From Cytophagales bacterium (lineage in GTDB: Bacteria > Bacteroidota > Bacteroidia > Cytophagales > Cyclobacteriaceae), in contig JANYHW010000178.1 of NCBI GenBank assembly GCA_025358885.1, positions 25,757-89,756 of the forward strand: a stretch of DNA of 64,000 bases, in the 5' to 3' direction. The stretch's first letter is position 1. The number at the start of each line of letters is the position of its first letter. Positions 4,925-12,372 of the stretch are shown here, one piece after another. The notes beneath the pieces are model-generated. The model ran no database searches. It saw only the letters and a program-made list of their open reading frames with translations, and was not told the DNA's origin. Made by a program: the position numbers and the translations under genes.

Positions 4925-5467
4925 ATGAATGTCTGTGTTTTTTGCGGTTCTGGCGCCGGTAATGACGCCATTTTTGCCGATGCGGCCCGCGAAACAGGAC
5001 GGTTACTTGCTCATTCGGGGCATACCTTGGTATATGGTGGCGGCAATATTGGCCTGATGGGAATCGTTGCCGATGCAGCAATGGCCCATCACGGACAAGT
5101 CATTGGGGTTATCCCGGACTTTCTCCTCAAACGAGAAGTAGGACACCAGGGGCTCACCGAGTTGATTGTTGTCAGTTCCATGCACGATCGAAAAAAGAAA
5201 ATGGCCGACCTGTCGGACATTTTTGTTGCCTTGCCCGGGGGATGGGGCACATTGGATGAACTGGCCGAGATCCTTACCTGGCGCCAGCTTGGGCTCATCC
5301 ATCAGCCTATAGGACTTTTAAATCTTGATTCTTTTTTCTCCCCATTGGTTGCCCAAATGAGAACCATGTCAGAAAGGGGATTTCTCCATAAAGACAATCT
5401 GAATTTCCTGGCGATTGAAGATTCTCCTTCAAAATTGCTCACTTCTTTGGGGGTAGTTACCGTTTAA
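4925..5467 (+). CDS. LOG-family (TIGR00730) Rossmann-fold protein, putative cytokinin riboside 5'-monophosphate phosphoribohydrolase
   Basis: MNVCVFCGSG start and LPGGWGTLDELAEILTWRQLG (PGGxGTxxE) motif. Confidence 0.88.
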   Translation: MNVCVFCGSGAGNDAIFADAARETGRLLAHSGHTLVYGGGNIGLMGIVADAAMAHHGQVIGVIPDFLLKREVGHQGLTELIVVSSMHDRKKKMADLSDIFVALPGGWGTLDELAEILTWRQLGLIHQPIGLLNLDSFFSPLVAQMRTMSERGFLHKDNLNFLAIEDSPSKLLTSLGVVTV

Positions 5468-5521
5468 GTATTATCGTTTATAATTTTTTTCAATAGTTTT
5501 AATCCGGGGCAACCCGGCTTC

Positions 5522-6751
5522 ATGCGCATTTGCAGATATTTTCTATTGGTGTTCTTGATTCCATTGACGGCAAAGGCTCAATTATTGGGTCTCAACCTGA
5601 TGGATGGGCGACATCGGGTGAAATTTCCGATTGAGGTCTGCAACAACCTGGTCGTGATACCCGTCGTTCTCAACGGACAACTACCGCTGAAATTTATTCT
5701 GGACACCGGCGTGCGCACCACCATTCTCACGGAGAAGACATTCAGCGACATTCTCAAACTAACCTATGGGCGGCATTACATGGTGGCGGGGCCCGGGGGA
5801 GAAAAGGTTGTGGAGGCTTTTGTGACCAACAACGTATCGCTCGACCTGCCAGGTATTCATGGCGAAGGGCATGCCATGCTGGTCCTCGAAAAGGACTACC
5901 TGGAACTTAGAAACTATATGGGGATGGATGTGCAGGGGGTTCTGGGATATGAAGTCTTTAGCCGTTTCATCGTAGAGATTGATTATAGAAGCAAAGAGCT
6001 CACCCTGTCGCTCCCGGAATACTTTCAGCCCAAAAAGAACTTTCAGGAACTGTCCATTAAGATAGAAGACACGAAACCTTACCTCATTACTCCAGTAACG
6101 ATGGGTAACGGTGTAGTTGTCAATGCAAAATTACTGGTTGACAGCGGCGCCAGCCATGGGCTCGTATTGGATCCTTCTTCTGACAATAAAATAGTCGTAC
6201 CCGAAAAGCATGTTAACAGTTTGATTGGCCGTGGACTTGGTGGATTGATCACGGGTGAAATTGCAAGGATTAAGGCATTGAACATCGGTAAGTATCGCAT
6301 TGAGAACGTTATTGTCAATTTTCCTGATGCAAACAGTTATATCGATACACTAAAGGCTTCCGATGTTTTCAGAAACGGTGCGATCGGGGGTGAAATATTA
6401 AGCCGCTTTACAACCATCTATGACTTCCCCAGAGAAAAATTATATGTTAAAAAGAATTCTTCTTTTTACAACACCTTTAATTTTAACATGAGTGGTCTTA
6501 CGCTGAAGGCAAAGGGATCACGACTTCGCAAGTTTGAAGTCGCAGATGTAAGAAAAGGTTCACCGGCAGAAAAGGCCGATATTCAAAATGGAGACGAGTT
6601 GCTGTTTATCAATGGCTTTCCCACCCATCAACTGGACCTGAATAGCCTTAATGGCTACTTCAACGAAAGGCCTGGCAAGAAAATCAAATTGGATTTATTA
6701 CGAAATGGTGTAAAATTGACCAAAAGGTTTGAACTCGAAAGTCAAATTTGA
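5522..6751 (+). CDS. Exported retropepsin-like aspartyl protease with C-terminal PDZ domain
   Basis: Signal peptide; two aspartyl motifs (FILDTGVRTTIL, LLVDSGASHGLVL); C-terminal PDZ (VADVRKGSPAEKADIQNGDELLFINGFP). Confidence 0.85.
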   Translation: MRICRYFLLVFLIPLTAKAQLLGLNLMDGRHRVKFPIEVCNNLVVIPVVLNGQLPLKFILDTGVRTTILTEKTFSDILKLTYGRHYMVAGPGGEKVVEAFVTNNVSLDLPGIHGEGHAMLVLEKDYLELRNYMGMDVQGVLGYEVFSRFIVEIDYRSKELTLSLPEYFQPKKNFQELSIKIEDTKPYLITPVTMGNGVVVNAKLLVDSGASHGLVLDPSSDNKIVVPEKHVNSLIGRGLGGLITGEIARIKALNIGKYRIENVIVNFPDANSYIDTLKASDVFRNGAIGGEILSRFTTIYDFPREKLYVKKNSSFYNTFNFNMSGLTLKAKGSRLRKFEVADVRKGSPAEKADIQNGDELLFINGFPTHQLDLNSLNGYFNERPGKKIKLDLLRNGVKLTKRFELESQI

Positions 6752-7218
6752 ACCTTCGACGAGCTGAAGAACCTTTCAAGCTGACCCTTTCGTTTACCAT
6801 ATTCCTTCTTCCAGGAACGCTGCGTTTCAAGGAAATGGTTTGAGTTAACCAGCTCGCGGTATAGCATTTCACTGGTCAGGTGCTGCTTTAATATGAAGTT
6901 CATCACGCCAAACCCTATCGTCTCCTGGTAATTTGAATTCTTCAATATGGTGATGGGGACATTCCGCGTCTTATGGTGATGAAGGGTTCCAATCATGGTT
7001 TGCAACGCTACCCTGCCAATATTATCGTCAATCAATATATGCTCCGGTCTGAAATGTGAAAGGCGTTCCAGGATGGATTTCAGATCAAAGGCCATCTCGG
7101 TAAGGATCAGTTTATGTTGAATCCCTTTGAGCCGATCAAAAATATCACTCAATTCAATTGGGTTGTTGCCAACCACAAGAATTTTCCAGCTACCGTCTGA
7201 ATCGCATATTGTTCTCAT
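6742..7218 (-). CDS. Receiver-like / hypothetical protein
   Basis: Receiver-like alternation (KILVVGNNPIELSDIFDRL...HILIDDNIG...VPITILK) without an output domain. Confidence 0.5.
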   Translation of the reverse strand: MRTICDSDGSWKILVVGNNPIELSDIFDRLKGIQHKLILTEMAFDLKSILERLSHFRPEHILIDDNIGRVALQTMIGTLHHHKTRNVPITILKNSNYQETIGFGVMNFILKQHLTSEMLYRELVNSNHFLETQRSWKKEYGKRKGQLERFFSSSKVQI

Positions 7219-7321
7219 AGTACTTTTTATAACCCTTAGTGCGAAAAGGCAACCCAGGTAACCTCAAAAAAACCATTTCTCTCCCGATTTCACACTACCT
7301 CTAAAATGGTAGTTTTAGGCT

Positions 7322-8443
7322 GTGGCTGAGAAAAAAATCTGTGTTGTTGGGGGCGGCCTTGCGGGCCTGGTTGCTTCAATTCATCTCCAACGCGCCGGAA
7401 TTCATTGCCATGTGATTGAAAAAAGGACCTATCCCTTCCATCGCGTCTGTGGCGAATACATTTCCAATGAAGTTCTTCCTTACCTGAAATCGCTAGGGAT
7501 TGATCTGGCAGAACTTCGCCCTTCCCGCATCAGTCAATTTCAACTCACTTCAGTCAACGGCAATACCGCCACCCTTCCACTGGATTTGGGAGGGTTTGGA
7601 GTCAGTCGGTATCAGCTCGATTATTTCCTTTTTCAAAAAGCAACCTGCCTTGGTGTTGAATTTAGCCTTAATACAGAGTGCGAAAAAATTACTTTCCATG
7701 ACGACAATTTTACAGTCCAAACCAACAAGGGTGAGCGGTCTGTGGATTTGGTCATCGGTTCATTTGGCAAGAGATCAAAACTGGATGTTCATCTCAATCG
7801 TTCATTTATTCAGAAGAGATCACCTTACCTGGGAGTGAAATATCATATCCGATTAAATAATTATCCGGCAAATCAAATTGCACTTCATAATTTTCAGAAC
7901 GGCTACTGCGGCATTAGTTGTGTCGAAGACGAGATTGTCAATCTATGCTATCTCACCCACCGCAAGAATGTCAAAACACATGGAAACATCCGCGCCATGG
8001 AAGAGGCAGTGTTGTTCCAAAACCCATATTTGAGAGAAATTTTTGGAACAGCGAAATTTCTGTTTGATAAACCCGAGACCATCAATGAAATTTCCTTTGA
8101 GACCAAGTCGCCGGTGGTGCAGCATATTCTCATGGCAGGAGATGCTGCAGGAATGATCACACCGCTCTGTGGAAATGGTATGGCCATGGCGATTCACTCG
8201 GCAAAGATTCTCAGCGAGCATATTCTTCAGTATTGCCGGGTCGGTGGATCTTCCCGCAACCAACTGGAGAAGGATTATTCAAATTCCTGGGGGAAACTTT
8301 TTGCCAAAAGGCTGTGGACAGGCCGACAGATTCAAAGGTTGTTCGGTGATGTGTGGACGTCCAACCTGGCCGTAAATCTTGCGCTTCATGCTCCACGGAT
8401 CGCAAATTCACTGATAAAAAGAACGCATGGCGAGCCCTTTTGA
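7322..8443 (+). CDS. NAD(P)/FAD-dependent oxidoreductase (geranylgeranyl-reductase / phenolic hydroxylase-like)
   Basis: GTG start; GxGxxG FAD motif CVVGGGLAGLVASIHLQRAG; second FAD motif ILMAGDAAGMITPLCGNGMAMAIHSA. Confidence 0.85.
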   Translation: MAEKKICVVGGGLAGLVASIHLQRAGIHCHVIEKRTYPFHRVCGEYISNEVLPYLKSLGIDLAELRPSRISQFQLTSVNGNTATLPLDLGGFGVSRYQLDYFLFQKATCLGVEFSLNTECEKITFHDDNFTVQTNKGERSVDLVIGSFGKRSKLDVHLNRSFIQKRSPYLGVKYHIRLNNYPANQIALHNFQNGYCGISCVEDEIVNLCYLTHRKNVKTHGNIRAMEEAVLFQNPYLREIFGTAKFLFDKPETINEISFETKSPVVQHILMAGDAAGMITPLCGNGMAMAIHSAKILSEHILQYCRVGGSSRNQLEKDYSNSWGKLFAKRLWTGRQIQRLFGDVWTSNLAVNLALHAPRIANSLIKRTHGEPF

Positions 8444-8553
8444 ACTTTCTTAATCAAGAATTTAGCACTCCATCCAATTGAATCCGGAGTTCCTGTAAAA
8501 GCAGAAAATACCAGGATGATTTTTTATAACTTTCTCCATAAACCAACATTCTG

Positions 8554-9549
8554 ATGAACTCCACGAATCGAAGAGAATTTATCCGTACCCTTGGCTTGGT
8601 CACCGCAAGCTCTGCATTGGGTGCCACCCTGCTCGACGCATGCGCATCAAAGTCTTCGTCTGAAAAAGCGGCAGATTCCACCACCTTGGCCACGGCCCCC
8701 AATAAGGAATTGTTCTTTAAGATTTCCCTGGCCGAATGGTCATTACACAGGGCCCTGCAGGCAAAGCAACTTGATAACCTTGACTTTCCGGCGAAAGCCA
8801 AAAACGATTTCGGAATCTCCGCAGTCGAATACGTAAATCAATTCTTCAAAGACAAGGCCAAGGATACGGGCTACCTCACTGAGCTCAAGAAGCGTTGCGA
8901 CGACAATGGTGTTACCAGTGTGTTGATCATGATCGACAGCGAGGGGTTCATGGCTGACCTGGACAACAAGAAACGCCAGCAGGCTGTGGAAAATCATTAC
9001 AAGTGGATTGACGCAGCTAAATTCCTGGGCTGTCATTCCATACGGGTCAATTGCTTTGGAGAAGGCTCAAGGGAAGAAGTGGCTAAAGCGGGAATTGAGG
9101 GACTGCACAAACTAAGTGAATACGGGCAAAGTGCAGGTATCAATGTAATCGTTGAAAATCACGGAGGAATGTCTTCCGATGGTCAGTGGCTGAGCGGGGT
9201 GATTACTGCCGTGGGGCTGCCCAACTGCGGCACTTTACCAGACTTCGGCAACTTCTGTATTCGCAGGGAGAAAGGTGACATGTGGAATTCCAAATGCGTG
9301 GAATATTATGACCGGTACAAAGGTGTAACTGAATTGATACCCTATGCCAAGGGAGTAAGTGCCAAGACGTACGATTTCGATGCCGAGGGCAATTGTGTTG
9401 AAACTGATTATGCCAAGATGCTGCCCATCGTCAAGAAGGCCGGGTACACAAACTACATAGGAATTGAGTACGAGGGTGACGGCCTTTCAGAGGAGGAGGG
9501 AATCCGGACAACGAAGCGACTCCTGGAAAAAGTGGGCATGGCGATCTAG
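8554..9549 (+). CDS. TAT-exported sugar phosphate isomerase/epimerase (xylose isomerase-like TIM barrel)
   Basis: [23 protein letters not shown] twin-arginine signal; [15 protein letters not shown] and IGIEYEG motifs. Confidence 0.8.
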
Positions 9550-9552
9550 TTT

Positions 9553-10467
9553 TCAAAAAAGGTATTCTCCAATGTGACTGATGGAGAAGAAGAGCCAGAG
9601 GAAGAATGCATTCAGACAGGTGGCAGAAATGAAATTCAGCCACATCGTGTGACTGAAGTCTGCATAATGGGGATTGTGGATGACTTTCATAAACCAGAAG
9701 CCAAAGAACAATACCACCGGGCTCAATGCAGCCATGAATGTCCAGCCATAGCGGATTTCGTAGTAGCTATTGAAATATGCCAGGAACCCTATTGTCGTAA
9801 TTGAGAAGAAAAGCGCGGCAAAATAGAATGTACCGCTGATGCCCAGAATGCGGCTAAGCGTGTTATCGCCGTGGGCCTCATCTTCTTCGTGCTGGTAGAC
9901 TTGCGTCATTGGATAATTCGCCCATAACATCAAACTGGTAAGCAGACCCGGAAGAAGAACCTTCGCCTGCAAGATGTTCTCCAAGTCGTAGTTATTGACC
10001 CCGATGTAGCACATAAGGAAAGTATATAGTCCTTGAAAAAGACCCGTAACAACCCAGCCTATTATTGGGTACTTCTTCAATCGAACAGCTGGATGACTAT
10101 ACGCCTTGGAAACAAGGCCGTAGCCGAGCAACATGCAGGAAAACAATAAGGATACTTCGAGAAATCCCAGCACGATGGCTATTGTATCCAGGCCAATTGA
10201 CATCCAGTACAATCCTTTTGTAACCGGAGGCGGGTTTTTCAGTCCTCCAATACTTTTCTCGTCTTTGTCAAAATAGCTATTGTAGCCGTTGCTTGCCGGG
10301 TAGAGGAAGAAGTGCAGCAGAATAAAGACCCAAAGCAAACTGGATTCACCGAAGTTTGGGGACACCGCCACCGCAAACAGGTATACCGGCAATAGAAAGT
10401 ATGAAAAAGAAAACCGGAGGTGAAGGAATGTAGATTTTGAAAACATCGACTGAAACTTAATCTCCAA
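9553..10467 (-). CDS. UbiA-family prenyltransferase
   Basis: Multiple TM helices; Asp-rich NGYNSYFDKDE and second Asp-rich HEEDEAHGDNTLSRILG motifs. Confidence 0.82.
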   Translation of the reverse strand: MEIKFQSMFSKSTFLHLRFSFSYFLLPVYLFAVAVSPNFGESSLLWVFILLHFFLYPASNGYNSYFDKDEKSIGGLKNPPPVTKGLYWMSIGLDTIAIVLGFLEVSLLFSCMLLGYGLVSKAYSHPAVRLKKYPIIGWVVTGLFQGLYTFLMCYIGVNNYDLENILQAKVLLPGLLTSLMLWANYPMTQVYQHEEDEAHGDNTLSRILGISGTFYFAALFFSITTIGFLAYFNSYYEIRYGWTFMAALSPVVLFFGFWFMKVIHNPHYADFSHTMWLNFISATCLNAFFLWLFFSISHIGEYLF

Positions 10468-10496
10468 AATAATCCTTTTTGAACTATTATTGAGAA

Positions 10497-11603
10497 ATGA
10501 GTTTTATCACTTCCATGGGCACGGCCACACCGCCGCACCAGTTGAGCCAGGCCACCATCGCCGACTTTATGACCAAAGCGATGAAATTAGGCGATGATGA
10601 TGCCCGTAAGCTACGCGTCCTTTTTCGCGCGAGTGGAATTGAAACGCGCCATACCATCCTAGAGGATTATGGCAAAACCGAAGGCTTCCAATTCTATGAA
10701 AACAGTTCAGACTTGGAACCCTTTCCTTCCACGAAACGCCGGCTTGAATTATATCACCGTCACGCGCTTGCGATTAGCCTGGAAGCAGTGCTTAGATGTT
10801 TGTCCCCCCTGACAGACCTCCGGAAGGAATCCATCACGCACCTCATTGTAGTGAGTTGCACGGGCATGTATGCACCAGGACTTGACATTGATCTCGTAAA
10901 GTCACTTGGCCTTAGTCTGCATGTTCAAAGGACGAGCATCAATTTTATGGGTTGTTACGCTGCATTCAATGCATTGAAAATCGCAGACTCAGTATGCGCG
11001 TCACAACCGGAATCGAAAGTGCTGGTGGTGTGCATTGAGTTGTGCACGATTCATTTTCAAAAGGAAAATACAGAGGACAATATGCTGGCGAATGCATTGT
11101 TTGCAGACGGTGCGGCGGCCGTACTGGTCGAGTCTTCGTTGCGACCTGGATTAAATATTCAATTGGAGAGTTTTCACGGTGAGCTTGCCATTGAAGGGGA
11201 GCATGACATGACCTGGACTGTAGGCGATATGGGTTTTGAAATGAGGTTGTCTTCCTACGTACCGGATGTGGTGGGCTCGGGCATCAAAAGCCTGACGCGG
11301 TCCTTGCTTTCCAAGATTCAAACAGACTTCTCTAACATTTCATATTTCGCCATCCATCCGGGAGGCAAAAAAATTCTTGAGGCAATTGAAAGTGAGCTGG
11401 GGCTGACAAAGGAACAAAACCGGTTTGCCTATGAAGTACTGAGGAAGTATGGCAACATGTCTTCTCCCACTGTTCTATTTGTTATTCATGCGCTCATGAA
11501 GTCACTGGGCATGGGCGATGATGGAAAAAGGATTCTCAGTTTTGCCTTCGGTCCGGGACTTACGTTGGAAAGTATGGTGTTGAAAGTTAAAAACAAACCG
11601 TGA
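10497..11603 (+). CDS. Type III polyketide synthase (chalcone/stilbene synthase family)
   Basis: Catalytic Cys in NFMGCYAAFNAL (codon 10953-10955), His in YFAIHPGGKKILEAIE, Asn in YGNMSSPTVLFV. Confidence 0.92.
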   Translation: MSFITSMGTATPPHQLSQATIADFMTKAMKLGDDDARKLRVLFRASGIETRHTILEDYGKTEGFQFYENSSDLEPFPSTKRRLELYHRHALAISLEAVLRCLSPLTDLRKESITHLIVVSCTGMYAPGLDIDLVKSLGLSLHVQRTSINFMGCYAAFNALKIADSVCASQPESKVLVVCIELCTIHFQKENTEDNMLANALFADGAAAVLVESSLRPGLNIQLESFHGELAIEGEHDMTWTVGDMGFEMRLSSYVPDVVGSGIKSLTRSLLSKIQTDFSNISYFAIHPGGKKILEAIESELGLTKEQNRFAYEVLRKYGNMSSPTVLFVIHALMKSLGMGDDGKRILSFAFGPGLTLESMVLKVKNKP

Positions 11604-11658
11604 CCACCTGGGAGTTGTAGTCGAATGTTCAAAGCATAATTCTAAAAATTGAGGGTTT

Positions 11659-12372
11659 ATGACTTCGCGGTTTGCGCAGCGTTCTGGTGAAATCGAGATC
11701 ATGGATGATCTTCAGTGCAATGGCGAAGTGGTTCACCAGACCCTGCGCGAATTGGAATTCATCAACCGGTGGCTGGGTGGAAATGCGGTGACCCTGGAGG
11801 GAATCAGGGAATTAATTAAGGGTCAGGACAAGAAATCATTTGCCATCGCCGATCTGGGTTGCGGTGGCGGAGACATGCTGAAACTGCTTGCGGAGTGGGG
11901 ACGAAAAAGCAATTTGAGTCTTCAACTCACCGGGATTGACGCCAATCCCCACATTATTGAATTCGCCAAAAGCAACTGCAGGGCCTATGGAGAGATTTCA
12001 TTTGAGACATTGGACATATTCTCGCCTGAATTTGAACGACAATCCTATGACATTGTCATGGGCACATTATTTTATCACCACTTTCAAAACGATCGACTGA
12101 TTGAATTTCTCTCGAAGCTCAGGCGACAAGTTCGAGTAGGTCTGGTGGTGAATGACATTCACCGCCATTGGCTGGCGTTTCATTCCATCCGCCTCCTTAC
12201 AAAATTTTTTTCAAAATCCGCGATGGTAAAGGTTGATGCACCCCTGTCTGTATTGCGCGCATTTAAGCGGGGAGAATTGGAAACGATTCTCCACCAGGCA
12301 GCGATATCGCCATTCAGGTTGCACTGGAAATGGGCGTTCCGCTGGCAAGTCGTTTACAGGAAGGGCCCATAA
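11659..12372 (+). CDS. SAM-dependent class I methyltransferase
   Basis: Motif I IADLGCGGGDMLKLLAEWG; GIDANPHIIEFAK; 55 nt downstream of the type III PKS. Confidence 0.87.
   Translation: MTSRFAQRSGEIEIMDDLQCNGEVVHQTLRELEFINRWLGGNAVTLEGIRELIKGQDKKSFAIADLGCGGGDMLKLLAEWGRKSNLSLQLTGIDANPHIIEFAKSNCRAYGEISFETLDIFSPEFERQSYDIVMGTLFYHHFQNDRLIEFLSKLRRQVRVGLVVNDIHRHWLAFHSIRLLTKFFSKSAMVKVDAPLSVLRAFKRGELETILHQAAISPFRLHWKWAFRWQVVYRKGP

Follow-up and report, generated by a model that had tools for sequence, protein, structure and literature searches.

The window analyzed here is a 64,000-nucleotide stretch of a Cytophagales bacterium genome (contig JANYHW010000178.1), and at positions 7322–12372 it contains a putative phenolic-lipid locus with genes for a type III polyketide synthase (PKS) and a membrane protein of the UbiA fold. 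The source is a 3.84-Mb draft whose nearest named relatives are Cyclobacteriaceae metagenome-assembled genomes (MAGs) and Chryseolinea-type Cytophagales. At the left end there is a forward-strand gene (7322–8443) coding for a flavin adenine dinucleotide (FAD)-dependent oxidoreductase (PF01494, E = 2.5e-14), a predicted ring hydroxylase. The predicted UbiA-fold prenyltransferase is encoded on the reverse strand (9553–10467; PF01040, E = 5e-15, scoring 55.9 bits where the cut-off is 34.2), and translation probably begins with the ATG at 10446, from which its homologues align. A gap of 29 bp (10468–10496) separates it from the divergently oriented, forward-strand PKS gene (10497–11603; PF00195, E = 4e-29; PF02797, E = 2e-24); the same divergent layout is found at 15 four-gene loci in the sample of the order described below, and the gap is a probable shared control region. 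Further to the right, a forward-strand gene (11659–12372) codes for a class I S-adenosylmethionine-dependent methyltransferase (MT; PF13649, E = 2e-14), predicted to carry out O- or C-methylation of the ring. The initial annotation had placed five genes within 5 kb here, the fifth being a TIM-barrel gene between the FAD and UbiA genes, and all five open reading frames lie where it put them, each with a clear Pfam match.

The PKS combines both type III PKS domains with the Cys-His-Asn triad that had been recognized initially, and the triad (Cys153, His287 and Asn320) is intact in the window and invariant in 31 relatives. The nearest solved chains are those of Steely1 and mycobacterial PKS18. 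PKSs linked to a UbiA gene cluster together in a quick tree with several unresolved forks, requiring 3 label changes versus 15.4 in shuffles. The best NCBIfam match of the MT is to NF004851 (144 bits, below its cut-off), and the FAD enzyme has below-cut-off similarity to geranylgeranyl-reductase-like proteins. Inspection of the FAD enzyme sequence finds neither the WxWxIP motif of halogenases nor the YxWxFP motif of geranylgeranyl reductases, and with scores below cut-off and both signatures absent we favor neither assignment.

One sample of 148 genomes from the order, some of them incomplete, was searched for each of the five proteins, and the presence tables were compared. PKS and UbiA are both present in 105 genomes and both absent from 38, with two genomes having the PKS only and three the UbiA only (phi 0.915); the two PKS-only genomes carry divergent PKSs, and two of the three UbiA-only genomes are 81–84% complete. 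The PKS also co-occurs with the FAD enzyme (both in 101 genomes, phi 0.871) and with the MT (both in 96, phi 0.803). As a control for kinship, presence was shuffled 5000 times within families for the 141 genomes of known family; PKS and UbiA are concordant in 136 of these, the shuffle mean is 122.6, and none of the 5000 shuffles reaches 136. Both genes are missing from ten genomes, which belong to seven families where the pair is otherwise present. The initial annotation was to be abandoned if UbiA and PKS proved not to co-occur in relatives, and the reverse is the case.

The association goes beyond gene order. In 34 genomes with a PKS, the 10 kb to either side of it contain none of the other three genes, yet UbiA is encoded elsewhere in the genome. 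Where the genes are together, two arrangements predominate: 17 genomes have UbiA-PKS-MT-FAD all in one orientation, and 15 have that of the window, with FAD, reversed UbiA, PKS and MT. In two genomes UbiA and PKS form a single in-frame open frame of about 650 residues. The PKS adjoins UbiA in 71 of the 80 named relatives found through UbiA, and no further gene is conserved across families around the set in the 20 neighborhoods examined. The co-occurrence, the shared operons and the UbiA-PKS fusion strongly indicate that PKS, UbiA, FAD enzyme and MT serve one pathway. A FAD/PKS/MT cassette that merely happens to lie beside an unrelated UbiA gene might be suspected from the opposite orientation of UbiA and from the PKS/MT/FAD cassettes of other bacteria that have no UbiA, but the genes co-occur strictly even when widely separated, are lost jointly, share operons and, in the case of UbiA and PKS, can be fused in frame, all of which speaks against it; since co-occurrence exceeds chance after correction for kinship, chance proximity would survive only with a badly biased sample, and we regard it as scarcely credible.

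The TIM-barrel gene (8554–9549, forward strand) encodes a xylose isomerase-like lipoprotein (PF01261, E = 6e-22) of the twin-arginine translocation (Tat) type, in which the start of the protein (14 residues and then ...LLDAC) shows a twin-arginine stretch and, after it, a lipobox. Its presence is barely correlated with that of the PKS (phi 0.134), and 469 of 5000 within-family shuffles do as well as the observed distribution. It adjoins UbiA in 12 of the 80 close relatives, and in those 12 its place is between the FAD and UbiA genes in every case where the available sequence includes the FAD gene. Despite this shared slot, the five-gene unit proposed in the initial annotation is rejected for lack of co-occurrence: FAD, UbiA, PKS and MT are conserved as a set and the TIM barrel is not. 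With no phylogenetic association to the PKS, the TIM-barrel gene is a passenger and the set is therefore counted as four genes.

The genome contains five UbiA-family genes, including that of the window. Two of the paralogues are over the curated cut-offs for heme O synthase and MenA, respectively, a third matches NF009513 over its cut-off, and the fourth resembles LA_0991. The NF009513 gene is located directly behind a gene for a 397-residue protein of unassigned role (contig L003, 175–2259). The window UbiA reaches no NCBIfam cut-off and so has no MenA or heme O synthase equivalog match; with separate MenA and heme O synthase genes filling both roles, it therefore belongs in neither the menaquinone nor the heme pathway, and the second circumstance under which the initial annotation was to be given up does not apply either. 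A related proposal is that it acts in archaeal-type ether lipid synthesis with a geranylgeranyl-reductase-like FAD enzyme, and there are indeed weak NCBIfam matches of the UbiA to GGGP geranylgeranyltransferases and of the FAD enzyme to the geranylgeranyl reductase superfamily, but these are far below cut-off, the FAD enzyme is without the reductase motif, and the MenA, heme O synthase and NF009513 genes are all present; a role in menaquinone, heme or ether lipid synthesis is thus very unlikely.

The AlphaFold model of the window UbiA (predicted local distance difference test score 94.4, from 61 sequences) has as its best Foldseek matches the solved UbiA enzymes 4tq3, 4tq4, 7bpu and 4od4, with template modeling scores of 0.59–0.67 normalized to query length and 14–20% sequence identity. 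Conserved residues are R18, N63, D67, Y123, S124, K131, Q192, H193 and D196. In AfUbiA the metal ligands are N68, D72, D198 and D202, and R22 and K146 hold the diphosphate (PMC4106721); by motif alignment, rather than from a superposed model, the window counterparts are R18, N63, D67 and D196, with Tyr-Ser at 123–124, basic residues at 129–132, and Gln192 in place of D198. Motif I is NSxxDxD as compared to the canonical NDxxDxxxD, with the Asn and the middle Asp kept, the third Asp replaced, and a new invariant residue, Asp69, in the clade. Motif II is QHxxD as compared to DxxxD, and Gln192 is present in every clade member, in the fused UbiA-PKS proteins, and in a sister group from another family. 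This sister group (about 150 bits) has NSxxDxD and QxxxD motifs and no PKS neighbors, and in one of its members a thioredoxin-like gene follows UbiA. His193 is nearly invariant in the PKS-linked UbiAs and variable in the sister group. In a tree that includes the paralogues of this genome the paralogue branches are saturated, and the tree therefore shows only that the PKS-linked UbiAs stand apart from the sister group.

These substitutions raise the question of whether the UbiA-like protein is a membrane partner of some other activity, transferring a different group or catalyzing a cyclase-like reaction, and no prenyltransferase at all. The Gln at the first motif II position in all members, the replaced third Asp of motif I with the new Asp69, and the great distance from MenA and heme O synthase would all fit such a role. 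However, the counterparts by motif of AfUbiA N68, D72, D202, R22, Y139 and S140 are invariant, and the AfUbiA D198A substitution weakens geranyl diphosphate binding 45-fold and does not abolish it (PMC4106721). We consider a different activity improbable and, on these sequence features, take the UbiA protein to be an active enzyme with an altered second metal site.

The reach of the set beyond the order was examined in 346 genomes of the phylum with search models built from order members, so that the scores are not independent of kinship, and with thresholds chosen after the scores were seen. The 23 genomes with a UbiA of at least 288 bits are exactly the 23 with the top PKS scores (at least 448 bits). 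Clusters of all four genes are also found in further families of the class, and one family of another class has UbiA, PKS and MT. In other families a PKS/MT/FAD cassette of three genes has no copy of this UbiA next to it, and among the phylum members the MT and FAD proteins of such cassettes mostly score about 110 and 50 bits, respectively, as compared to about 280 and 500 bits in the four-gene set.

Several variant cassettes are of some interest. Two loci (L255 in genome G364, 6660–9547; L260 in genome G029, 4971–7931) encode FAD enzymes 47–49% and MTs 39–43% identical to those of the window together with a PKS of only 27–29% identity and no adjacent UbiA; in L255 a gene for a YceI-domain protein adjoins the FAD gene. 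The FAD/MT tailoring pair seems to be common to two kinds of PKS. Plasmid 5 of Psychrobacter urativorans (5995–8818) has a PKS 45% identical to that of the window beside FAD and MT genes and no UbiA, and as this PKS nests among those of Cytophagales in the quick tree, horizontal transfer is possible. A planctomycete plasmid copy is more distant (PKS 37%, MT 25% identity), and no relatives of the UbiA were found in the plasmid collection. Cytophagales-like copies of the locus or of UbiA are also present in records assigned to other phyla, namely two Candidatus Anammoxibacter MAGs and a Thalassovita MAG, and are likely the result of mis-binning.

We consider it probable that the locus encodes a four-enzyme pathway to a prenylated phenolic lipid, working like the agq system of Actinoplanes missouriensis (Awakawa et al. 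2011). Judging from its family, the PKS would build an alkylresorcinol-type ring from a long-chain acyl starter and malonyl-CoA. The FAD enzyme would then hydroxylate and the MT methylate this ring, as suggested by their srs, pkq and hid counterparts and by agq chemistry, and the UbiA enzyme would use an isoprenoid diphosphate to prenylate the ring or one of its hydroxyls, a role predicted from its fold, the conserved diphosphate-site residues and the agq precedent. The likely product, with its chemistry read from the genes, is a hydroxylated, methylated and prenylated alkylresorcinol lipid.

Three observations weigh against this pathway. Two acidic residues typical of the family, the first Asp of motif II and the third of motif I, are not kept in the UbiA clade, and because of this its prenyl transfer may be changed or absent. 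The FAD/MT pair is also found beside a different PKS without a UbiA in the vicinity, so a methylated and hydroxylated product may stand alone, unprenylated. The FAD enzyme is also only weakly similar to the flavoprotein of the known type of three-gene cassette (23% identity to that of Psychrobacter).

A further possibility concerns the role of the product, in that the FAD enzyme and MT could oxidize and methylate an alkylresorcinol to a benzoquinone acting as a membrane electron carrier, to which UbiA adds a second lipid anchor. In mycobacteria and Streptomyces, respiratory polyketide quinones are the products of three-gene PKS/MT/oxidoreductase operons, and the near-core distribution (105 of 148 genomes) is more in keeping with a physiological lipid than with a niche metabolite; against this, the genome has its own MenA so that menaquinone is available, and no respiratory-partner gene is conserved beside the set. 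We view a respiratory quinone as less likely than not, and the envelope or redox role suggested in the initial annotation is likewise conjectural. Returning to the prenylated phenolic lipid, the boldest form of the proposal, which is speculative and to be held quite loosely, is that a hitherto unrecognized prenylated polyketide quinone or hydroquinone is a near-core component of Cytophagales and related Bacteroidota, active beside menaquinone in the membrane and made through a new, PKS-fusable UbiA clade of the Gln type.

What is new here is the near-core distribution of the set in Cytophagales and relatives, the in-frame UbiA-PKS fusion, the appearance of one FAD/MT pair beside a second kind of PKS, and, by motif alignment, a distinct UbiA clade in which the second metal motif starts with Gln and not Asp. 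A search of the open literature, with most subscription journals outside it, found no paper joining type III PKS, UbiA and Bacteroidetes. If the proposal is correct, a large and environmentally common bacterial group that includes Algoriphagus, Belliella, Fulvivirga, Chryseolinea, Marivirga and many uncultured relatives would carry an uncharacterized prenylated phenolic lipid as an almost core trait, and since cultured strains with the cluster exist, its product and role are directly testable. The UbiA-PKS fusion offers a natural system for studying how a soluble PKS passes its product on to a membrane prenyltransferase, and from the Gln-type motif arises the question of how the second metal is bound in a UbiA enzyme.

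Among solved and characterized UbiA proteins, MenA, heme O synthase, DGGGP synthase and AfUbiA share with the window UbiA the fold, the Asn and Asp of motif I and the basic and Tyr/Ser residues, but they differ from it in its QHxxD and NSxxDxD motifs. The initial annotation took SrsABC as the nearest architecture. Type III PKS, MT and flavoprotein together yield methylated and oxidized alkylresorcinols and quinones in Streptomyces and mycobacteria (PMC9927152, PMC5916927), and the srsABC genes of Streptomyces griseus and pkqABC of Mycobacterium and Streptomyces, which lead from alkylresorcinol to alkylbenzoquinone, resemble the window in having these three genes in one operon, with the MT and oxidoreductase likened by function. 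Unlike the window they have no UbiA, and the Cytophagales set does not conform to such a three-gene type without a dedicated prenyltransferase, as UbiA is found in 105 of the 107 PKS-bearing genomes of the order. The same difference applies to cyanobacterial hidABC, responsible for hierridin-type phenols, and to the related planctomycete MT-oxidoreductase-PKS operons (PMC10896814), which share with the window an MT, a FAD oxidoreductase and an alkylresorcinol-forming type III PKS. By its steps the agq system, which the initial annotation did not name, is closer. In A. missouriensis the alkylresorcinols made by AgqA undergo prenylation and hydroxylation (PMC10896814). A membrane-bound enzyme carries out the prenylation, which is of the O type (PMC4044012), and the pathway yields 6-alkyl-4-O-dihydrogeranyl-2-methoxyhydroquinones (PMC3569393). 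As there described, agq and the window have the same four kinds of step, namely type III PKS, prenylation, hydroxylation and formation of a methoxy group, and a PKS, a prenyltransferase, an MT and a ring-oxidizing flavoprotein are all encoded in the window and conserved as a set, although the two are from different phyla and the likeness is one of described steps. An agq-like row of UbiA, methyltransferase, acyl-CoA dehydrogenase and PKS genes is found in a Micromonospora fragment (PMC7587189, Table 1), where the flavoprotein is of the acyl-CoA dehydrogenase type in contrast to the FAD_binding_3 type of the window. Compared with agq, the Cytophagales set is distinguished by being near-core in its order, often dispersed, and fused as UbiA-PKS in two genomes.

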